Below, piece after piece: positions 287-8,311 of a stretch of 8,325 nt of DNA. The notes under the pieces are model-generated. The model was given only the letters and a program-made list of their open reading frames with translations, did not search any database and was not told where the DNA came from. The translations under genes were made by a program, and so were the position numbers. The stretch is from an uncultured Macromonas sp. (GTDB lineage: Bacteria; Pseudomonadota; Gammaproteobacteria; Burkholderiales; Burkholderiaceae): positions 1-8,325 of the forward strand of contig CAMLOF010000129.1 in NCBI GenBank assembly GCA_946481585.1. The letters run 5' to 3'. The stretch's first letter is position 1; the number at the start of each line of letters is the position of its first letter.

Positions 287-306
287 TTTCCGTGTTTTCG
301 TTGTTT

Positions 307-335
307 TTGACGAAAAATGTTGTGTGATGTATGGA
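307..335 (+). promoter_or_regulatory. Candidate promoter for the fliE operon
   Basis: TTGACG (307-312) is a good -35 match. TATGGA (330-335) follows after a 17-base spacer but is a poor -10. This lies inside the AT-rich stretch just upstream of the riboswitch, where a promoter must exist if the aptamer is transcribed. An alternative -10 is TACGAT (367-372), which would start transcription only a few bases before the aptamer but lacks a convincing -35. I searched for a sigma54 GG-N10-GC pattern and for a sigma28 element and saw no convincing match. Confidence 0.3.
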
Positions 336-383
336 TTTTGTCGTGGTTTATCGCGAATGTGTTTGTTACGATCCGTGACAAAA

Positions 384-478
384 GAAGGGCACACCCGTGC
401 GAAAGACGGGGTCGCAAAGCCTCCGGTCTAACGCTTGCGCACTGCGCGAGTCACGATGGCGGGGTTGCCGACTTAGCC
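384..478 (+). promoter_or_regulatory. Cyclic di-GMP-I riboswitch aptamer (GEMM-I)
   Basis: The RNA reads GGGCACACC (387-395), then a hairpin CCCGT/ACGGG capped by a C-GAAA-G tetraloop (394-410). The near-invariant core GCAAAGCCTCCGGTCTAA follows at 414-431. A variable stem CTTGCGC/GCGCGAG with loop ACT spans 434-450, and GGCGGGGTTGCCGA closes the fold at 458-471. These match, in order, the elements of the Vibrio cholerae Vc2 class I c-di-GMP aptamer: GGGCAAACC, GAAA loop, GCAAAGCCTCCGGCCTAA and GCGGGGTTACCGA. By alignment from memory the ligand-contacting bases map to G388 (Vc2 G20), A416 (A47) and one of C468/C469 (C92). P1 is probably short: AAG 385-387 with CTT 472-474, next to GGC 388-390 with GCC 467-469. 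The site lies upstream of fliE on the same strand, so it should control flagellar operon transcription. Confidence 0.93.
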
Positions 479-479
479 T

Positions 480-494
480 GACCAGAACCTGGTC
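480..494 (+). other. Perfect 6-bp hairpin between aptamer and terminator
   Basis: GACCAG (480-485) pairs perfectly with CTGGTC (489-494) around a three-base loop AAC. It sits immediately after the aptamer. It could stack between the aptamer 3' strand and the terminator 5' arm, bringing the two antiterminator segments (469-473 and 509-513) closer together. Structural reading by eye. Confidence 0.5.
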
Positions 495-507
495 TGTCTT
501 GTCGTCA

Positions 508-545
508 GAGTCGCGGCGCGCTCAAGCGCCCGACTCGGCTTTGTT
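508..545 (+). terminator. Riboswitch expression platform: putative intrinsic terminator
   Basis: GAGTCG (508-513) pairs with CGACTC (531-536), and GGCGC (515-519) with GCGCC (526-530). This gives an 11-bp stem with one bulged C (514) and a six-base loop. It is followed by GGC and then TTTGTT (540-545). The stem is very stable, but the U-tract starts three bases late and is interrupted, so termination may be partial. AGTCG (509-513) of the left arm is complementary to CGACT (469-473), part of the aptamer 3' strand and P1. The two foldings are therefore mutually exclusive. Ligand binding, by locking 469-473 into the aptamer, should free the left arm and allow the terminator, giving an OFF switch. 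The direction is inferred. Confidence 0.65.
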
Positions 546-581
546 ATCTCCACCGCTGCCGGGCGTGCCTGTTGGGTTCAC

Positions 582-624
582 GGGTACATCCGTGGGGCCA
601 CGGAAGCAACGTCCGTGCGTACCC
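582..624 (+). other. Structured fliE leader hairpin with alternative pairing
   Basis: GGGTAC (582-587) pairs perfectly with GTACCC (619-624). Inside it, TCCGTG (589-594) pairs with CACGGA (599-604) around loop GGGC. CCGTG occurs twice (590-594 and 613-617), and both copies are complementary to CACGG (599-603), so two inner folds are possible. The structure ends 16 bases before the fliE Shine-Dalgarno sequence. I do not recognise it as a known RNA family. It may stabilise the leader or affect translation. Confidence 0.45.
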
Positions 625-653
625 CTGGTGTGCCGCAGCAAGAAGGTGGTGGC

Positions 654-977
654 ATGTCGTCCCAAATGTTGGTGGAAATTCAGGCAGCGCTGGCGCAAAT
701 GCAGGCTGCAGCGGAGCCTGCCGTTGCAGCCGCCGCTGACGGCCAAGCCAGCGCAGCCGTGTCTTTTGCCGATCACATGGCGGCCATGGTGCGCCACGTC
801 GATCACCAGGGCCAGCAGGCCAATGAACGCATGGCCGCGGTGGAGCGGGGCGAAAGCGACGACCTCGTCGGCGCCATGCTCAGCAGCCAGGAAGCCGGTC
901 TTTCCTTTTCCATGATGATGCAGGTGCGCAACAAGGTGGTGGCCGCCGTTGACGACCTCATCAAGCTGCAGCTGTGA
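654..977 (+). CDS. fliE: Flagellar hook-basal body complex protein FliE
   Basis: Small export-apparatus substrate that joins the MS ring to the proximal rod in the periplasm. The protein has 107 residues, close to the usual length of about 104. The first half is Ala/Gln rich. The C-terminal half (about 38-107) carries the conserved FliE pattern of SFADHM, a helix with QANE, and a C-terminal Met-rich helix (SFSMMMQVRNKVV) ending in LIKLQL. The ATG at 654 was chosen because AGAAGG (641-646) lies seven bases upstream and the residues match the family start. An in-frame ATG at 615 has no ribosome-binding site and would place its start inside the leader hairpin. This is the first gene of the operon and lies downstream of the c-di-GMP riboswitch. 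Its stop overlaps the GTG start of fliF (GTGA, 974-977). Confidence 0.93.
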   Translation: MSSQMLVEIQAALAQMQAAAEPAVAAAADGQASAAVSFADHMAAMVRHVDHQGQQANERMAAVERGESDDLVGAMLSSQEAGLSFSMMMQVRNKVVAAVDDLIKLQL

Positions 978-2677
978 AGAGAGCGCTCACCCCCCTGCTG
1001 CGGCAGTGGCAGCCCAAGCCCGCCTGGGGCCGCTGGCTGCGCCCGCAAGCCTGGCAGCCGCTGCTGCCCGTGCTGGTGCTGGCCATCGGCCTCACGGCGC
1101 TGGTCATGATGTTCCAGTGGAACAGCCAGGCCTCGTACAAGCCGGTGTTCGGTGCCAGCGAGAAGGTGCCCACCGCAGACATGCTGGCCGTGCTCGATGC
1201 CGAAGGCATCCCCTACCGCCTGCATCCCGAGACGGGGCAGGTGCTGGTGAGCGACGGGCAGCTCGGCCGCGTGCGCATGCTGCTGGCCGCGAAGGGCGTG
1301 GTGGCCAAGCTGCCCGAAGGCCTGGAGCTTGTGGACCGCAACGACCCCCTGGGTGTGAGCCAGTTCGTGCAGGACGTGCGCTTCCGCCGAGGCCTGGAAG
1401 GCGAACTGGCCCAGAGCATCATGGCCCTGGAGCCCGTCGCTCAGGCGCGGGTGCACCTGTCCATCGCGCGGTCCTCGTCGTTCGTGGTGAACACCTCGGA
1501 CAAAAGCTCCGCATCGGTGGTGCTGGCGTTGCATCCCGGGCGCACATTGGCGCCCGAGCAGGTCGCAGCCGTCATCAATCTGGTGGCGGGCAGCGTCGCC
1601 AACCTCGATCCCCAGCGCGTCAGCGTCGTGGATCAGGCGGGCAACCTGCTGTCGGCGCACGTGGACCTGAGCGAGGGCTTCGACGTATCGAACATGGGCA
1701 ACGAGTCCGCCCGCCGCATGCAGGAAGACATCCGGCGCAGCGCCCAGGCCTTGCTCGCGCCGCTGCTGGGTGAGGGCAACTTCCAGGTCAGCGCCACCGT
1801 GGAGGTGGAAAACGACCGCGTGCAGGAAACGCAGGAACGCTACGGCGACGCGCCCAAGATCACCAACGAGGCCACGCGCGAGGAGCTGGACCGGGACCGC
1901 CTGGCCTTGGGCGTGCCGGGTTCCTTGAGCAACCGGCCCGTGCCCACGCCGGGCAACAAGGGCGCGCAAGAGGGCAATACCGCCCAGCGCAGCGCCATGA
2001 CGCGCCAGTTTGCCTACGACCGCACGGTCACCACCATCCAGCGTGCCCGTGGCCAGTTGCGCAAGCAGAACGTGGCGGTGGCGTTGAACAGCGCGGCAGT
2101 ACCGGCTGGGCAACAAGGCTGGAGCGCGGCCGACCTGAGCCGCATGGAAGCCTTGTTGCGCGGCGGGCTTGGCATCGACGAGGCGCGGGGCGACAAGCTG
2201 GTGGTTTCGGCCATGCCATTCCCAGGCAAGCCCGAGCCGGTGGCCTGGTGGGCCGAGCGCGACACCATCAGCGACGCGGTGATGTGGGCGACCTATGCCG
2301 TGGGCGCGTTGCTGGCCTACCTGTTGCTGGCGCGGCCCCTGGTGCGTGTGCTGCAGCAGGCGGTGGCACGGCCACGCGAGCAAGAAGTGGCGTCACTGAA
2401 CGCCCTGCCTTCGGCTGGTGATGACACCGTCCTGCAGCCGCGTGCCTTGCCGGAGCCGGTAGTGGCCATGGCAGCACCAGCATTGCCGGGGGGACTCGAG
2501 GCCGCCGAGCGGGGCATGCCGGTGGTGCCTTTGCTGGAGGACTACGACCTGCCTCCTCCGGGGTCCCCGGTGGATGTGATGGTGAACCACCTGCGGGTAC
2601 TGGCGGGCAAGGAGCCGGAGCGGGTGGCCGAAGTCGTGAAACAGTGGGTGCAAAAAAATGCCTCAGCAGAACACTGA
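974..2677 (+). CDS. fliF: Flagellar MS-ring protein FliF
   Basis: Inner-membrane protein that builds the MS ring, the base for rod, rotor and export gate. The protein has 567 residues, within the family range (about 520-575). Transmembrane segment 1 lies at about 30-48 (LLPVLVLAIGLTALVMMF). Ring-building domains follow: RBM1 around 50-115, the YscJ/FliF-like RBM2 around 120-225 with QFVQDVRFRRGLEGELAQSI, and the collar region with YGDAPKITNE around 230-400. Transmembrane segment 2 lies at about 436-456 (VMWATYAVGALLAYLLL). The cytoplasmic tail ends in a FliG-binding helix (VNHLRVLAGKEPERVAEVVKQW). The start is GTG, overlapping the fliE stop by 4 bp with no clear Shine-Dalgarno sequence, so translation is probably coupled. 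The C-terminus overlaps fliG by 20 bp. Confidence 0.97.
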   Translation: MKRALTPLLRQWQPKPAWGRWLRPQAWQPLLPVLVLAIGLTALVMMFQWNSQASYKPVFGASEKVPTADMLAVLDAEGIPYRLHPETGQVLVSDGQLGRVRMLLAAKGVVAKLPEGLELVDRNDPLGVSQFVQDVRFRRGLEGELAQSIMALEPVAQARVHLSIARSSSFVVNTSDKSSASVVLALHPGRTLAPEQVAAVINLVAGSVANLDPQRVSVVDQAGNLLSAHVDLSEGFDVSNMGNESARRMQEDIRRSAQALLAPLLGEGNFQVSATVEVENDRVQETQERYGDAPKITNEATREELDRDRLALGVPGSLSNRPVPTPGNKGAQEGNTAQRSAMTRQFAYDRTVTTIQRARGQLRKQNVAVALNSAAVPAGQQGWSAADLSRMEALLRGGLGIDEARGDKLVVSAMPFPGKPEPVAWWAERDTISDAVMWATYAVGALLAYLLLARPLVRVLQQAVARPREQEVASLNALPSAGDDTVLQPRALPEPVVAMAAPALPGGLEAAERGMPVVPLLEDYDLPPPGSPVDVMVNHLRVLAGKEPERVAEVVKQWVQKNASAEH

Positions 2678-3686
2678 ACAGGGCATGGCAGACGACGCGC
2701 CGCCAAACCAGCTGGAGCTGGCGGCGATCGTTTTGCTGAGCATGGGCGAGAAATCGGCCGCCGAGGTGCTGCGCTGCCTGTCGCGCGAAGAACTGCTGGC
2801 CGTTACGCAGGTGATGTCCCGCATGAGCGGCATCAAGGTTGATGAGGTGAAGAGCGCCCTGCAGCGCTTCTTCGACGACTACCGCCAGCAAAGCGGCGTG
2901 CACGGTGCGTCCCGCGCTTACCTCAAGCAGACCCTGGACCTGGCGCTGGGATCCAGCATTGCCAGCAGCGTGCTCAACAGCATCTATGGCGACGCCATCC
3001 GCCCGAAAATGGCGCGCCTGCAGTGGGCATCCCCCAAGTGGGTGGCCGACCGCATCGGTCAAGAACACGTGCACATGCAGGCGGTGTTCCTGGCCTTCTT
3101 GCCGCCCACGCTGGCCAGCGCGGTGATTGACGCCCTTCCTACCGAAGGGCGGGAGCAGGTGATCATGCAGGTGGCCCGGCTGGAACACGTCGATCACGAA
3201 CTGCTGCTGGAACTCGAAGGTCTGGTCGAAAGCTGCCTGGAAGGCCTGGACACCCAGAGCGCGCGGGTCGAAGGCATCAAGCAGGCCGCCGAAATCCTCA
3301 ACCGGCTGCCGGGCAACCGCCAGGCAGTGGTGGCACAACTGCGCGAGCGCGACCCCGAAGTGGTCTCGCAGATCGAGCGCAGCATGTACGACTTCTACAT
3401 CCTGTCGCGCCAGAACGAGACCGTCATCACGCGCATCATCGAAGAGGTGCCGCTCGACCTGTGGGCGGTGGCGCTCAAAGGGGCGGAGCCCGAGTTGCGT
3501 CGCGCCATCCTGCAGGCCATGCCGCGCCGTCAGGCGCAGGGCTTCGAGGACACCATGCGCCGCACTGGACCGGTGCCTATGAGTCGTGTCGAGCAGGCCC
3601 GCGAATCCATCATGAACGAGGTCAAGAACCTCGCCGACGCGGGCGAGATCGAGATCCAGCTCTTTGCCGAGGCGGTGGTCGAATGA
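2658..3686 (+). CDS. fliG: Flagellar motor switch (rotor) protein FliG, divergent
   Basis: Rotor protein on the cytoplasmic face of the MS ring that transmits torque from the stator. The protein has 342 residues (usual about 331). The N domain (LELAAIVLLSMGEKSAAEVL) binds FliF. The middle domain contains LQW and EHVH (136-139) where most FliG proteins have EHPQ, the FliM-binding motif. The linker motif usually read as MFxFEDL is MYDFYIL (243-249). In the C domain, ALKGAE keeps the key Lys (K274, E. coli K264). R291 and D298 match R281 and D288, but D289 and R297 become T299 and P307 by hand alignment. The ATG at 2658 overlaps fliF by 20 bp. An alternative ATG at 2685 would give 333 residues but has only a badly spaced Shine-Dalgarno sequence. 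The stop overlaps the fliH ATG (ATGA). Divergence suggests a lateral-type system. Confidence 0.96.
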   Translation: MPQQNTEQGMADDAPPNQLELAAIVLLSMGEKSAAEVLRCLSREELLAVTQVMSRMSGIKVDEVKSALQRFFDDYRQQSGVHGASRAYLKQTLDLALGSSIASSVLNSIYGDAIRPKMARLQWASPKWVADRIGQEHVHMQAVFLAFLPPTLASAVIDALPTEGREQVIMQVARLEHVDHELLLELEGLVESCLEGLDTQSARVEGIKQAAEILNRLPGNRQAVVAQLRERDPEVVSQIERSMYDFYILSRQNETVITRIIEEVPLDLWAVALKGAEPELRRAILQAMPRRQAQGFEDTMRRTGPVPMSRVEQARESIMNEVKNLADAGEIEIQLFAEAVVE

Positions 3687-4402
3687 GACACTTCCGGCCC
3701 TACCGCTTTCCCTCGCTGACCCGCCTGTCCATGGCACAGGGCGCAGGCACCGGTACGGGCGAAGGCGACCCGCAGGCCGGTTGGGCGCAAGGCTTTGCCG
3801 AGGGCGAGGCGCGCGGTTACGACGAAGGTTACGCCCAGGGCCTGCAGCAGGGGCGCACCGACGGTGTGGAGCAAGGCCACCGTGAAGGCCTGCCACAAGG
3901 CCGCGCCGAGGGCCGGCGGCAGGTGCAGGAAGAATTTGCCGGCTTGGCGCGCCCGCTGGACGCCGCCGTGGCCGAGGTGCGCAAGCTGCGCGACGACTAC
4001 CAGGCGGCCCTGCGCCGCGAATTGGTGGACCTCGTGGCAAAGGTGGCGCGCCAGGTCATCCGCTGCGAGCTGGCCTTGCAGCCGCGCCAGCTGCTCACGC
4101 TGGTGGAAGAAACGCTGGCGTCCATGCCAGCGTCCAACGATCAGGTCGAGGTGGCGTTCAACCCACTGGATCTGGAGCGGGTGCTCGACCTGGACCCGCA
4201 GCGCGCGCAGCAGTGGCAGCTCGTGGCCGACCCGCGCCTGGAGGCCGGTGAATGCCGCGTCAAGCGTGGCGGTCAAGAGGCCGACGCCGGGTGCCGCCAG
4301 CGCCTGCAGGCCTGCATCGACCAGATCGAGGCGCAGGTGTTTGACGAAGACTTGCCGCGCGGGGCCGCTGACGAGGTGACCGCCGAGGAGGTGGCGTCGT
4401 GA
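3683..4402 (+). CDS. fliH: Flagellar assembly protein FliH (negative regulator of FliI ATPase)
   Basis: Cytoplasmic protein of the type III flagellar export apparatus. It dimerises, holds the FliI ATPase inactive and links it to the export gate and C ring. The protein has 239 residues (E. coli about 228-235). The N-terminus is short, basic and aromatic (RHFRPYRFPSL). Residues 33-77 form an uninterrupted GxxxG ladder, with glycine at every fourth position and twelve glycines in all, a FliH signature. A coiled-coil region follows (about 85-130), then the C-terminal FliI-binding domain with VDLVAKVARQVIRCEL, DLERV and DPRLEAGECRV. The ATG at 3683 overlaps the fliG stop by 4 bp. Longer upstream reading in this frame is fliG out of frame and is not used. 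The end overlaps fliI (GTGA). Confidence 0.93.
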   Translation: MRHFRPYRFPSLTRLSMAQGAGTGTGEGDPQAGWAQGFAEGEARGYDEGYAQGLQQGRTDGVEQGHREGLPQGRAEGRRQVQEEFAGLARPLDAAVAEVRKLRDDYQAALRRELVDLVAKVARQVIRCELALQPRQLLTLVEETLASMPASNDQVEVAFNPLDLERVLDLDPQRAQQWQLVADPRLEAGECRVKRGGQEADAGCRQRLQACIDQIEAQVFDEDLPRGAADEVTAEEVAS

Positions 4403-5709
4403 TCACCGACCTCATCCGCAAGCTCGAACTCGACGAGGTGCCGGTGGCCACGCCCACGGGGCGCCTGGTGGGGGCCTCGGGCCTGTTGCTTGAGGTACGC
4501 GGTTGTCCTTTGCACACGGGGCAGCGTTGCCAGATCGAGACCGCGCACGGCCAGTGGGTGGATGCCGAGGTGGTGGGGTTCCGCGAGCAGGTGTCGTTTG
4601 TCATGCCCTTCAAGAAGCCCGATGGCCTGTCGGCAGGTGCACGGGTGCTGCCCGTGCCGCGCGGCGCGGGCCTGATGGTGGGGCCGTCCTGGCTGGGCCG
4701 CATCGTCAACGGCCTGGGCGAGCCGGTGGACGGCCTGGGGCGCCTGGGTGGCGAGCATGTGCTGGAAAACACACCGCCCAAGGTCAACCCGGTGCGCAAG
4801 CAGCCGGTGCACGAACCCCTTGACGTGGGCGTGCGGGCCATCAATGGCCTGCTGACGCTGGGGCGTGGCCAGCGCGTCGGCCTGATGGCGGGCAGCGGCG
4901 TGGGCAAGAGCGTGCTGCTGGGGTTGATCACGCGGCAGACGGTGGCAGACGTCGTCATCGTCGGCCTGATCGGCGAGCGTGGCCGCGAGGTGCGCGAGTT
5001 CATCGACCTGTCGCTGGGCCCGGCGGGCCTGCGGCGGGCCATCGTGGTGCTGGCGCCCGCCGACGAGTCGCCGCTGATGCGGCTGCGCGCCACCGAGTTG
5101 TGCCACAGCCTGGCTGCGCACTTCCGCGACCAGGGCCAGCACGTGCTGCTGCTGCTCGATTCCCTGACGCGTTTTGCCATGGCGCAGCGCGAGGTGGCAC
5201 TGGCCCTGGGCGAGCCGCCTGCGACGCGCGGTTACCCGCCGTCGGTGTTCAGCCTGCTGCCGCAGCTGGTGGAAAGCGCGGGCAACGGCGAGAACCCGCG
5301 CGGCAGCATGAGCGCGATCTACACCGTGCTGGCCGAAGGCGACGACCAGCAGGACCCGGTGGTGGACACGGCGCGCGCCATTCTGGACGGGCACATCGTC
5401 ATGTCCCGTGCGCTGGCCGAACGCGGCCACTACCCGGCCATTGATGTGGGCGCTTCCATCAGCCGCTGCATGGCGCTGGTGGCGCCCACTGCCCAGCAAC
5501 GTGCGGCGCGCAACCTCAAGGCTTTGCTGGCGCGCCACGAACAGGTGCGCGATCTGCTGCCGCTGGGCGCCTACGTGCAGGGCGCCGACCCGCAGACCGA
5601 CCGTGCCGTGGAACTGTTCCCGCGCATCGAGGCCTACCTGCACCAGGGCGTGCACGAGGCGGCCCCATTGGCCGATTGTGTGGAACGTTTGCAGGAGCTG
5701 TGCGGATGA
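4399..5709 (+). CDS. fliI: Flagellum-specific ATPase FliI
   Basis: ATPase of the flagellar type III export apparatus, related to F1-ATPase beta. It forms a hexamer under the export gate and powers substrate unfolding and entry. The protein has 436 residues (E. coli 457; the shortfall is mainly N-terminal). The N-terminal helix MITDLIRKLEL is the expected FliH-binding segment. Walker A is AGSGVGKS at 164-171, the GERGREV motif with catalytic Glu is at 192-198 (E193), and Walker B VLLLLD ends at D254, followed by SLTRFAMAQREV and the ATRGYPPSVF signature. All catalytic residues appear intact. The start is GTG at 4399, supported by a strong GAGGAGG (4386-4392) six bases upstream and by the GTGA overlap with fliH. 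The end overlaps fliJ (ATGA). Confidence 0.97.
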   Translation: MITDLIRKLELDEVPVATPTGRLVGASGLLLEVRGCPLHTGQRCQIETAHGQWVDAEVVGFREQVSFVMPFKKPDGLSAGARVLPVPRGAGLMVGPSWLGRIVNGLGEPVDGLGRLGGEHVLENTPPKVNPVRKQPVHEPLDVGVRAINGLLTLGRGQRVGLMAGSGVGKSVLLGLITRQTVADVVIVGLIGERGREVREFIDLSLGPAGLRRAIVVLAPADESPLMRLRATELCHSLAAHFRDQGQHVLLLLDSLTRFAMAQREVALALGEPPATRGYPPSVFSLLPQLVESAGNGENPRGSMSAIYTVLAEGDDQQDPVVDTARAILDGHIVMSRALAERGHYPAIDVGASISRCMALVAPTAQQRAARNLKALLARHEQVRDLLPLGAYVQGADPQTDRAVELFPRIEAYLHQGVHEAAPLADCVERLQELCG

Positions 5710-6140
5710 ACAAGCCACAGTCTTTGCAGACGCTGGGCCGGGTGGTCTCCCTGCGCGCTCGCGAGCAGGAGCGCATCAGCCTGGAACTGGCCCGGCAGCA
5801 GGCGCAACTGGAACGCTACCGGCGCAACGTGCAGCGGCTGGAGAACCTGTGCGAACAGAGCGGTGCCAGCGGCGCCATGCCGATTGCACTGTCGGCCAAC
5901 TGCGCCGACTACAAGCAGGCCGTGATGGACCTGGCTCATGCGCAGCGCGAAGAAGCTGGTCGGCACGAGACCGAGCTGGCCACCACGCGGCAGGCTCTAC
6001 ACGCCGCCATGCGCAGGCACGGGGCGGTCGATCAGGCCCTGCAGCGGCGCTTGCAGGGCTGGACTTCCGAGCAGGCGGTGCGTGCACAAAAAACGCAGGA
6101 TGAACTGGCTACCCAGGTCTGGTGGAGGGGGCGGACATGA
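5706..6140 (+). CDS. fliJ: Flagellar export chaperone/ATPase stalk protein FliJ
   Basis: Small coiled-coil protein that inserts into the FliI hexamer like the gamma subunit of F1 and also escorts late-export chaperones. The protein has 144 residues (E. coli 147). It is almost entirely helical, with long Gln/Arg/Glu/Leu heptad-like stretches (LARQQAQLERYRRNVQRLEN) from about 15 to 55 and again in the second half, ending in basic residues. Primary sequence is poorly conserved in this family, so the assignment rests on length, coiled coil and position directly after fliI. The ATG at 5706 overlaps the fliI stop by 4 bp. An in-frame upstream ATG at 5676 would extend into fliI and is less likely. 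It is followed by a hairpin that may end the fliE-fliJ transcript. Confidence 0.9.
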   Translation: MNKPQSLQTLGRVVSLRAREQERISLELARQQAQLERYRRNVQRLENLCEQSGASGAMPIALSANCADYKQAVMDLAHAQREEAGRHETELATTRQALHAAMRRHGAVDQALQRRLQGWTSEQAVRAQKTQDELATQVWWRGRT

Positions 6141-6244
6141 CGCATGCCTTCCATGCTGATTTAAGCCACGGCACCTTCGGGTCGCCTTTTACCGTACAGC
6201 CGGGGGTGGGTCCCCGGTTCACCGGAGGAACACACCATGGCTGA
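6137..6244 (+). CDS. Possible 35-residue leader peptide linking fliJ and fliD
   Basis: An ATG overlaps the fliJ stop in the same ATGA arrangement used elsewhere in this operon. It opens a 35-codon frame that ends at TGA 6242-6244, just inside fliD, whose ATG is at 6237. The peptide begins MTHAFHADLSHG and ends TGGTHHG. It is Gly/His/Pro rich, has no membrane segment and no domain I recognise. If translated, it would carry ribosomes through the hairpins at 6170-6217 and couple fliJ to fliD. It has no clear Shine-Dalgarno sequence and could well be chance. Confidence 0.2.
   Translation: MTHAFHADLSHGTFGSPFTVQPGVGPRFTGGTHHG
6170..6190 (+). terminator. Possible intrinsic terminator or attenuator after fliJ
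   Basis: GGCACC (6170-6175) pairs with GGT-C-GCC (6180-6186, one bulged C) around the extra-stable loop TTCG, followed directly by TTTT (6187-6190). This is the layout of a small rho-independent terminator, located 30 bases after the fliJ stop. The stem is short (6 bp) and the T-run is only four, so readthrough into fliD is likely. Confidence 0.5.
6200..6217 (+). other. GC hairpin in the fliD leader
   Basis: CCGGGG (6200-6205) pairs perfectly with CCCCGG (6212-6217) around a six-base loop GTGGGT. It sits six bases before the fliD Shine-Dalgarno sequence GGAGG (6224-6228). It could protect the 5' end of a processed fliD transcript or act with the preceding hairpin. There is no T-tract, so it is not a terminator itself. 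Confidence 0.4.
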
Positions 6245-7583
6245 CATCAATCCCACCACCTGGGCCACCCAACTGGCCACCGCGTACACGCAGGGTACGC
6301 AGACCCAGATCACGCAGCAGACGACGCTGGCCTCGAACACGTCCAAGGCGCTGTCCACGCTGAAGTCGGCCTTGTCCGCTTTCAACAGCACCCTCGGCAG
6401 CTTGTCTACCAAGAAGACCATGCAGGCCAACAGTGCCACGCTGAGCGACAGCACGCTGGGCACGGCCACTGCGTCGGCCAGCGCTCAAGCGGGTGACTAC
6501 TCTTTCTTCGTGCAGCAGCTGGCCACGGCACACCAGGTCCGGTACGCGGGCATTCCATCGGTCACGGCCAGCGGCGCCGGGTCTCTCGTCATCAACCAGG
6601 CTGGCGGGGCCAGTTTCGCCGTTGACCTGTCCACCGCTGACAGCGATGGCGACAGCAGCGTTTCGCAGACCGAATTGGCCCGGGCCATCAACTCGGCAGC
6701 CAACAGCACCGTTTCGGCGAGCGTGGTCACCGTCAGCGGAACCTCTTATCTCACCCTGACCGCGAAGGACACAGGGGCCAGTGGTGCCATTACCCTGGAC
6801 ACCAGCGGCGTGAGTGACGGCGGCTTGGCCACCGCCCTGTCCAACGGCACCCAACTCACCGCGGCGCAGGACGCCATCTTCAAGATCGGCACGGAAGCCA
6901 CTGGCATCACCGTGCAGCAGGCCAGCAACACGTACAGCGGCATCGCAGGACTCTCCGTCACGTTCACCAAGGCCATGGCCAACGGAGCTACGCCACTGTC
7001 CGTAACGGTTGCGACTGACAACAGCGCTATCACCGAGAAGATCCAGAAGTTCGTCGATGCTTACAACACCCTGCACTCCAAGCTGGAAGAGCTGACCGCC
7101 AGCAACGCCGACAGCAGCGCACGCGGCGTGTTCTCGTCCGATGCTGGCGTGCGTTTGCTCAAGAGCAATCTGAACAGCGCACTGCGCAAGACGTTTGGCG
7201 GCGCAACTCTGATGCAGTTGGGCGTTGAAGCTGATCGCTACGGGAAACTCAGTCTGGACAGCGACAAGCTGAAAGACGTACTCGCCACGGATCCTGCCGT
7301 GGTGGACGACGTGTTCGGCTACTCCACCACGGCCAGCAGCACAGGCCTGCTGGGCGCGATGGGCACCGAGTTGAATGCGTGGACCGGGAGCACCTCGGGT
7401 CAGATCACTCGGCGTCAGAGCATCGTGGAGAAGCAGCAGGCGAACCTTCAGACCCGCCAGACGCGGCTGGATGCGCAGTACGACGCCATGTACCAGCGCT
7501 ACCTGCAGCAGTTCACACAGCTTCAGTCCCTGACCAGCCAGTTGCAGAACAGCTCAGGCTTGTTCAGCCAGTTCTCCGCCTGA
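6237..7583 (+). CDS. fliD: Flagellar filament cap protein FliD, lateral-like
   Basis: Exported protein (HAP2) that caps the growing filament and folds flagellin into place. The protein has 448 residues, within family range. It is rich in Ser, Thr and Ala as usual for external flagellar proteins. The N-terminal coil (about 1-60) and the segment SAQAGDYSFFVQQLATAHQV (about 81-100) match FliD_N. The FliD_C region holds VTIATDN-like strands, EKIQKFVDAYNTLHSKLEEL and LGVEADRYGKLSLDSDKL. A C-terminal coil (about 395-448) includes YQRYLQQFTQLQSLTSQLQ. The N-terminus (MADINPTTWATQ) lacks the common GLGSGLD-type motif, resembling lateral FliD proteins. The ATG has an excellent GGAGG eight bases upstream. 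It has no signal peptide, consistent with type III export. It follows fliJ after 96 bp, an uncommon order for textbook polar systems. Confidence 0.93.
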   Translation: MADINPTTWATQLATAYTQGTQTQITQQTTLASNTSKALSTLKSALSAFNSTLGSLSTKKTMQANSATLSDSTLGTATASASAQAGDYSFFVQQLATAHQVRYAGIPSVTASGAGSLVINQAGGASFAVDLSTADSDGDSSVSQTELARAINSAANSTVSASVVTVSGTSYLTLTAKDTGASGAITLDTSGVSDGGLATALSNGTQLTAAQDAIFKIGTEATGITVQQASNTYSGIAGLSVTFTKAMANGATPLSVTVATDNSAITEKIQKFVDAYNTLHSKLEELTASNADSSARGVFSSDAGVRLLKSNLNSALRKTFGGATLMQLGVEADRYGKLSLDSDKLKDVLATDPAVVDDVFGYSTTASSTGLLGAMGTELNAWTGSTSGQITRRQSIVEKQQANLQTRQTRLDAQYDAMYQRYLQQFTQLQSLTSQLQNSSGLFSQFSA

Positions 7584-7623: not shown

Positions 7624-8010
7624 GTGAACCTCGACGCATACAGCAGCTACATGAACGTGAACCTGGGCGCCCAGACGGCTCAGGCTTCGCCTGTCCAGCT
7701 CATGCTCATCCTCGTGAATGGCCTGCAGGACGAACTGGCACGGGTCAAGGCGCACATCCAGGCGGGTCGTTACGAACTCAAGGCCAGCAGCATCGACAAG
7801 TGCACCGCCATCATCAACGGCATGTCCAGCGCGCTAGACACCGAAGCCGGGGGTGACTGGGTGGTGCAACTGGCCGAACTGTACGACTACTGCGTGCGTC
7901 GTCTGCACACGGCGGGCTTTGCTCTAGACGCAGAGCCAGTGGACGAGGTGGCGCGTCTGATGGACACGCTGCGCGAAGGGTGGGAAGGGCTGCAGCGCAA
8001 CCATGGTTGA
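7624..8010 (+). CDS. fliS: Flagellin export chaperone FliS
   Basis: Small all-helical cytoplasmic chaperone that binds the C-terminus of flagellin and prevents premature polymerisation before export. The protein has 128 residues, typical for the family. The N-terminus shows the FliS pattern: DAYSSYMNVNLGAQTAQ, then SPVQLMLILVNGLQDELARV. The helix KASSIDKCTAIINGMSSAL follows, then LAELYDYCVRRLHTAGF. The GTG at 7624 is the only in-frame start before the conserved Tyr-containing helix, but it has no visible Shine-Dalgarno sequence. The ATG at 7651 would cut the conserved N-terminus. There are 40 bases between the fliD stop and this start. The end overlaps fliT by 8 bp. No flagellin gene is in the window, so its substrate must be encoded elsewhere. 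Confidence 0.92.
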   Translation: MNLDAYSSYMNVNLGAQTAQASPVQLMLILVNGLQDELARVKAHIQAGRYELKASSIDKCTAIINGMSSALDTEAGGDWVVQLAELYDYCVRRLHTAGFALDAEPVDEVARLMDTLREGWEGLQRNHG

Positions 8011-8311
8011 AGTGAACACATTGAACCGGCTCGCGCAAGGTCTCTTGGCCAGCGCGCAGGCACAGGACTGGCCATCCTTGCAACGGCTGGACGCCGAGAT
8101 GGCCGAGGTCTTGCGCCGAGCCGTGAGCGTTCAACATCCTCCGCCGGCCTGGAGCGAAGCCGTTATCCGGTTGCGCGAGGCACACGAACAAGCACTGCAG
8201 GTCAGCAGCCGTGCCCGCGAACTGGCCCGTGACGAACTGCAGCGTTTTTGCGCCCAGCGCGAAATCGTTGAGGCGTATGCCTTGACGCAAGACATGGAGA
8301 TACCGACATGA
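8003..8311 (+). CDS. fliT: FliT-like flagellar chaperone
   Basis: Predicted small helical cytoplasmic chaperone. FliT family members bind the cap protein FliD and hand it to the export apparatus, and in enterics FliT also modulates FlhDC. The protein has 102 residues (E. coli FliT 121). Sequence conservation is weak. The assignment rests on position directly after fliD and fliS, small size and helical composition (LNRLAQGLLASAQAQDWPSL, then LREAHEQALQVSSRARELA). The motif of a short helix with D-W-L/S-L near residue 22-26 is typical of FliT-like proteins. The ATG at 8003 overlaps the fliS stop region by 8 bp, implying coupled translation. The stop overlaps the next start (ATGA, 8308-8311). 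No regulatory function is claimed here. Confidence 0.75.
   Translation: MVEVNTLNRLAQGLLASAQAQDWPSLQRLDAEMAEVLRRAVSVQHPPPAWSEAVIRLREAHEQALQVSSRARELARDELQRFCAQREIVEAYALTQDMEIPT

Follow-up and report, generated by a model that had tools for sequence, protein, structure and literature searches.

A class I c-di-GMP riboswitch aptamer ahead of a lateral-type flagellar fliE operon in the Burkholderiales

Introduction

The class I c-di-GMP aptamer has long been linked with motility genes (PMC6366702), and in Clostridioides difficile the seven functional class I switches, including that of the flgB operon, are OFF switches that work by termination (PMC6200980, PMC6366702). Regulation was seen for 11 of the 16 c-di-GMP riboswitches predicted in that species (PMC6200980). 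Elsewhere in the class, termination is not the mechanism of the V. cholerae switches, and B. thuringiensis has an ON switch, Bc2 (PMC6366702).

The Flag-2 genes of E. coli W are arranged as flhA-flhB-fliR-fliQ-fliP plus two fliM/fliN genes, after which a sigma-54 gene and then fliEFGHIJ run divergently, and the same gene order, with lafK, is given by PMC6993521. A lateral flagellar system is also reported to have been transferred from a gamma- to a betaproteobacterium (PMC8042155).

The locus presented here lies in a stretch of 8,325 nt from an uncultured Macromonas sp. of the Burkholderiaceae (contig CAMLOF010000129.1; the whole stretch is referred to as the window). An initial annotation, made from the sequence alone, had proposed a class I c-di-GMP riboswitch with a terminator and a competing antiterminator that turns a flagellar fliE operon OFF.

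Results

A covariance-model search against Rfam matches positions 378-472 of the forward strand to the c-di-GMP-I (GEMM-I) riboswitch aptamer RF01051 over the full model (1-87), with 62.9 bits and E 7.9e-11 against a gathering score of 35, while three other Rfam matches in the window at E up to 1 each lie under their own gathering score. The feature therefore belongs to a known riboswitch class, and the aptamer named in the initial annotation, which had itself pointed to RF01051 as the model to search, is confirmed; its start had been placed at 384, and the match begins 6 nt earlier, at 378. The GAAA tetraloop and the model stems are present and the alignment marks no non-standard pairs. The internal loop carries two changes relative to the model (A to C and A to U) that also occur in relatives. 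Near the ligand pocket, at 387-415, the consensus GGCAAACC..GGGACGC reads GGCACACC..GGGUCGC, the two changes being common to the fliE-linked aptamers and to many other aptamers of the same genome family. The GGG at 387-389 places G, not A, at the position that discriminates c-di-GMP from 3',3'-cGAMP, which we take to be G20 of Vc2 and to correspond to G388 here. A G20A variant serves as a cGAMP-binding mutant (PMC6274999). Binding of c-di-GMP by the window aptamer, and a resulting change of expression, are predictions made from sequence.

The region 365-550 folds better than 200 of 200 dinucleotide shuffles (z -3.81). A weak candidate for the 5' strand of the P1 helix at 382-388 of the forward strand (pairs 388-468, 387-469, 384-472, 383-473 and 382-474) appears only in the minimum-free-energy (MFE) structure with the aptamer imposed and the transcript ending at 500; pair 384-472 has a probability of 0-0.02 in longer transcripts, in which a hairpin at 469-472/501-504 takes the 3' strand of P1. 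A plasmid origin is possible but unsupported, i.e. window positions 300-1000 have no blastn match in the plasmid collection.

The aptamer is followed on the same strand by a flagellar operon, and the initial placement ahead of fliE holds, with fliEFGHIJ-fliD-fliS downstream by Pfam. A candidate ribosome-binding region, recognised by eye, lies at 640-653 and fliE itself at 654-977 (PF02049, 64.5 bits; TIGR00205); it begins 184 nt past the aptamer. Next come fliF (974-2677), fliG (2658-3686), fliH (3749-4402, start uncertain), fliI (4399-5709, with a Pfam match to the ATPase of that family), fliJ (5676-6140, start uncertain), fliD (6237-7583) and fliS (7624-8010), all matched by Pfam, and then a fliT candidate at 8003-8311 that is named from its position after fliS and has no Pfam match. 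A pyruvate kinase gene (PF00224) begins upstream of the riboswitch, on the opposite strand.

The window operon is of the lateral/Flag-2 type by sequence comparison, because FliF, FliH and FliI sort with the E. coli W Flag-2 proteins and not with those of E. coli K-12. The window FliF shares 37% identity and 310 bits with the Flag-2 FliF of E. coli W, and 30% and 175 bits with the K-12 FliF; 14 primary-type FliFs (13 from genomes with an aptamer at fliE and one from G012) show the reverse preference, with 355-416 bits to K-12 and 176-225 to Flag-2. In a maximum-likelihood tree of 50 FliFs, a branch with 100/100 support separates 15 primary-type sequences, including K-12, from the window, 33 others and E. 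coli W Flag-2. FliH exceeds the NF009925 cut-off and FliI that of NF005535, as do the E. coli W Flag-2 proteins, whereas K-12 FliH and FliI fall under both. The proposed OFF effect on flagella is accordingly narrowed: the fliE operon stands, the flagellum in general does not, and since the operon is lateral/Flag-2, an OFF effect would concern that system.

At least two FliFs (PF08345) are present in 28 of 29 genomes examined, the exception being G112 with one, and G284 has three, the third being a low C-terminal match of 61.6 bits (G284:C1:3931710-3932117). Across the 29 genomes the lateral-type proteins score 107.8-121.6 bits with PF08345 and the primary ones 134.2-169.1, and the window FliF scores 107.7. 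Among the 25 genomes with an aptamer at fliE, 24 have at least two FliFs and the aptamer is on the Flag-2-like one. FlhC is present in 27 of the 29 and was not found in G005 and G066. In six genomes (G005, G006, G009, G010, G016 and G017) the only RF01051 match is the one at the lateral fliE, with 101 candidates scored per genome. Six RF01051 matches each were seen in G104, G284 and G297, and one contig of G284 has two of them separated by about 2.4 kb, at C1:434001 and C1:436357.

A scan with FliE retained 80 loci, and the aptamer core is present within 1500 nt upstream of the match in ten of them; one-mismatch regular-expression matches at L027, L064 and L066 are not aptamer-like and were left out of the count. 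In the family of G005, 55 of 399 genomes match the aptamer-type pattern and none matches the reversed control; in the order of G017 the count is two of 399, G017 itself included. After removal of duplicates the same core is found in 88 loci, including the window, of which 26 (the window and 25 relatives) are followed by FliE and FliF; every one of the 25 fliE-linked relatives has an aptamer above the RF01051 cut-off. The other 62 have no FliE or FliF match in the 1.5 to 2.6 kb downstream. Four same-core aptamers (L141, L142, L172 and L173) stand before long frames whose starts look chemoreceptor-like by eye.

The window FliF matches 23 of the 399 family genomes at E up to 1e-60, three candidates being scored per genome; the aptamer is at fliE in 19 of them and absent there in the other four (G011-G014), which are Variovorax and Pseudorhodoferax. 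The 25 riboswitch-linked FliFs and that of the window belong to a single group of 27 in the FliF tree (88/92, not a starred branch); the sole aptamer-less member, Comamonas testosteroni L005, has a long branch. One gain of the aptamer and one loss would explain this tree, with moderate support; the tree includes only eight riboswitch-less lateral FliFs of betaproteobacteria. No other known RNA reached its gathering score in the 14 riboswitch-less fliE loci examined out of 70.

In genome G327, where the cluster can be read on both sides, fliM-like, fliN, fliP, fliQ, fliR, flhB and flhA lie on the divergent side, followed on the other by the riboswitch leader, fliE and fliF and, further on, by fliD, fliL, a sigma factor gene, motA, motB and flg genes. 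The aptamer therefore sits between divergent fliM and fliE, the spot that the sigma-54 gene lafK takes in E. coli Flag-2. Among 82 sequences (the 80 loci, the window and E. coli W), LafK is encoded upstream of fliE in L076, L078 and E. coli W only, none of which has the aptamer; ten have the aptamer with a divergent fliM, 60 a divergent fliM with neither aptamer nor LafK, and eight none of the three. The window has the aptamer only, with neither LafK nor a divergent fliM in the 653 nt upstream of fliE that it covers. There were zero matches to LafK elsewhere in the 84 loci searched.

Directly after the aptamer, the predicted folds contain a hairpin at 469-504 (H1; inner stem 480-485/489-494, outer stem 469-472/501-504) and then a terminator-like hairpin at 504-539 (H2), in which 11 bp at 508-536 with a bulged C514 are extended by 504-506/537-539. 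H2 is followed by UUUGUUAU, and its U-rich tail UUUGUUAUC at 540-548, called from the sequence and the terminator discriminant, is imperfect. With the discriminant d in what we take to be its correct formula, extended H2 and the following UUUGUUAUCU score +8.1, whereas the 11-bp stem 508-536 alone, for which the tail begins GGC, scores -35.3. The 11-bp hairpin of the initial annotation is present, but its terminator score depends on which of the two stems is taken, and H2 is absent from the listing of a consensus terminator scan; a terminator in the window is possible according to these models. H2 is the best-scoring hairpin of the 26 fliE leaders, two of which (the window and L187) are above zero, as against two of the 62 same-core aptamers elsewhere. 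In 24 of the 25 relatives the best hairpin in the scanned 280-nt stretch is below zero, L187 being the exception, and the leaders of the fliE-linked relatives are built differently from that of the window. The expectation that terminator and antiterminator would be kept together with the aptamer at homologous loci thus largely fails, with one relative of 25 above zero. Of the 88 leaders, L117 has the highest terminator score (+22.0): 83 nt downstream of the GGCAC of its same-core aptamer is a classical terminator, GCCAGUCGAUCGACUGGC followed by UUUUUU.

H2 (508-536) is found in every MFE structure from transcript end 536 on and has an ensemble probability of 0.99-1.0 once transcribed, whether or not the aptamer is imposed. 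CGACU at 469-473 and AGUCG at 509-513 are present as the initial annotation stated, but this 5-nt complementarity is weak evidence for an antiterminator because CGACU is also the right arm of H2 itself (531-535). The proposed pairing occurs in none of 16 MFE structures (eight transcript ends from 500 to 660, in two states), seven of the eight ends being long enough for it, and its middle pair, 471-511, reaches an ensemble probability of at most 0.01 free and 0.13 with the aptamer imposed over 21 choices of start and end. The competition between aptamer and antiterminator described for 469-473/509-513 is therefore in no predicted structure, and the switch model built on it needs a different antiterminator or a different output.

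The free RNA folds otherwise. The aptamer core GGGGUCGCAAAGCC at 408-421 of the forward strand pairs in ligand-free MFE structures and ensembles with 537-550, a complementary segment that gives a run of eight pairs reached by one of 40 shuffles. Positions 414-421 pair with 537-544, and 416-542 has a probability of 0.74-1.0 in 18 free ensembles; the pairing of 408-412 with 546-550 is less sure (410-548, 0.12-0.49). Measured as duplex energy between core and downstream sequence, the best duplex in the window lies at another site, and 30 of 200 shuffles are equally good.

In the 25 relatives the aptamer is 447-793 nt upstream of fliE, with fliE starts chosen by alignment, against 266 nt in the window. 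Sixteen leaders form a group with a common architecture: a first hairpin with invariant stem CAGAC/GUCUG and loop CUGA (13 leaders), CUGG (one) or CUGAA (two); a second that is CACGUG/CGCGUG-like; and a third whose stem varies yet remains paired. For the outer six positions of the third hairpin, whose bounds were selected for best own pairing, own arms are paired in 96 of 96 cells and arms swapped between species in 1085 of 1440. Directly after it, all 16 leaders carry an invariant GUUGUG[AG]CC; this motif is complementary to the aptamer core GGUCGCAA and occurs nowhere else on that strand in the 44,056 nt of the segments of the group.

When the leader plus 160 nt is folded, the MFE structure pairs the core with UUGUGRCC in 12 of the 16 group members; the partner is GCGACCC in L201 and L208, UGCGGCUC in L014 and L019, and GGCUUUGUUAUCUCC in the window, so that the core is paired with the segment after the last hairpin in 17 of 26 leaders (16 of 25 relatives and the window). 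Such core pairing is absent in L021, L045, L195, L207 and L221, and the core is paired elsewhere downstream in L009, L012, L036 and L134. Runs of at least seven core positions paired downstream occur in 14 of 26 leaders versus 2.55 expected when the downstream part is shuffled; seven of the remaining 12 have runs of 3-6 and five have none.

A candidate short frame of 5-77 codons between aptamer and fliE was picked by eye in all 21 relatives examined; these frames start 123-169 nt after the aptamer, about where fliE itself begins in the window, and their peptides (e.g. MNCHILV, MVIHRHLFIP and MSKP..) are little conserved. They have ribosome-binding-like sequence ahead of them and a few hundred nt between them and fliE (L019, L030 and L212 among the examples). 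Most relatives also have an AT-richer stretch between aptamer and fliE.

Discussion

The reading preferred here, given about even chances, is an aptamer-gated OFF switch that acts by termination at a lateral/Flag-2 fliE operon. Transcription would begin upstream of about 378, as judged from position, and the aptamer would fold first and sample c-di-GMP. At high c-di-GMP the bound aptamer would remain folded and transcription would terminate at 504-539 and its U-rich tail, so that the basal-body and export genes of this presumed second flagellum would not be made; at low c-di-GMP the unbound core 408-421 could pair elsewhere, most strongly with 537-550 by prediction, and polymerase would read through. 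The two parts of this proposal differ in standing: precedent in C. difficile, and not the computed folds, makes OFF the probable direction, while intrinsic termination as the output is as well taken as left. The folds do not explain how unbound RNA escapes the terminator, nor how the ligand decides terminator use. No pair of mutually exclusive structures was found, as H2 forms with a probability of 0.99-1.0 with or without the aptamer imposed, and pairing of the core with the tail is a poor antiterminator because it becomes possible only once polymerase has passed the tail. In addition, fliE may have its own promoter, given the short frame and AT-richer stretch that follow the aptamer in relatives.

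The same core-tail pairing suggests a switch that works without intrinsic termination, in which the segment after the last hairpin pairs the ligand-binding core when c-di-GMP is absent, and ligand binding frees that segment to act on translation, Rho or RNase access. This is somewhat unlikely, though it draws on the pairing itself (416-542 at 0.74-1.0, and an MFE core-segment pairing in 17 of 26 leaders), on the 14 leaders with runs of at least seven against 2.55 expected, and on a GUUGUG[AG]CC that is invariant in 16 of 16 leaders after a hairpin that varies and stays paired. Against these stand the common ancestry of most of the 17 leaders, duplex energies that are no better than shuffles except in L196 and L212, and the nine of 26 leaders that lack the pairing, four of them within the 16-member group; moreover, the core is invariant, so that no compensatory change is visible, the hairpin bounds were chosen for best own pairing and so favour own arms, and access to the Shine-Dalgarno sequence and start codon changes without consistency. 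This last point also weighs on the view that fliE translation is the direct output, with c-di-GMP altering access to the ribosome-binding site. The V. cholerae class I switches, which are not termination-based (PMC6366702), and a fliE start 184 nt after the aptamer are in its favour, but predicted Shine-Dalgarno access, free versus aptamer-imposed, takes no constant direction over 12 choices of start and end, and we consider it distinctly improbable. Masking of the fliE ribosome site is likewise unsupported, the change in access being inconsistent between folds.

The direction of the switch could also be reversed, with c-di-GMP raising the second flagellum, e.g. for attachment. That c-di-GMP usually lowers flagellar output speaks against this. 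There is a class I precedent for an ON switch in Bc2 (PMC6366702), but the C. difficile class I switches are OFF (PMC6200980), and an ON switch here is very unlikely. A relic aptamer with no regulatory effect would fit a window that has no clear switching structure, as well as the C. difficile count in which only 11 of 16 regulate (PMC6200980); it is scarcely credible for a full-length match of 62.9 bits that is found in the same place in 19 of the 23 sampled family genomes with this FliF type.

That the riboswitch has replaced LafK is something we can only infer from gene order, because most betaproteobacterial loci examined have neither aptamer nor LafK. A broader proposal, namely that betaproteobacteria with lateral flagella and no LafK put a riboswitch in this place once, in one clade, and that it acts via a core-locking strand and not an ordinary terminator, is tentative and, taken whole, doubtful. 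The riboswitch class is known; what is new is its place, at a lateral-type flagellum, in the LafK spot, in one group of Burkholderiales. Among the titles and abstract openings found in the open-access literature, none concerns a c-di-GMP riboswitch at a betaproteobacterial flagellar operon that is lateral or headed by fliE, and single members may well be already in supplements or Rfam.

A single RNA switch may decide whether an extra, surface-type flagellum gets built. If the proposal is true, these Burkholderiales would control their surface-type flagellum at its first basal-body operon through an RNA that senses c-di-GMP directly, the signal being one associated with life on surfaces, and the primary flagellum would have no such riboswitch, as in the six genomes with a single RF01051 match. 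This would give a simple account of the choice between two flagella, with a regulatory RNA in the place of a protein regulator.

The putative lateral flagella of Burkholderia dolosa (PMC5773237) are likewise a second, lateral-type system in the Burkholderiales, and the main text of that paper makes no mention of a riboswitch or of c-di-GMP; the FliF encoded on a Burkholderia chromosome 3 (L056) groups with Flag-2 in the tree, and its locus lacks an aptamer core within the 1500 nt upstream. With E. coli W Flag-2 (PMC6993521) the window shares the FliF, FliH and FliI subfamily, and G327 also shares flhA-flhB-fliR-Q-P-N-M divergent from fliE-fliF. The difference lies in what separates fliM from fliE, a LafK-type sigma-54 gene in E. 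coli W and the riboswitch leader in G327; upstream of the window riboswitch, by comparison, is a pyruvate kinase gene. The initial annotation had likened the locus to the riboswitch of the C. difficile flgB operon (Cd1/Cdi-1-3), and in outline the likeness holds, i.e. both have a class I aptamer in the leader of an early flagellar operon and a terminator-like hairpin after it. In C. difficile c-di-GMP causes termination (PMC6200980, PMC6366702), while switching in the window is predicted. Cd1/Cdi-1-3 belongs to a Firmicute and a flgB-headed operon, whereas the window is from a high-GC proteobacterium, with an imperfect tail ahead of a fliE-headed operon of the lateral type.
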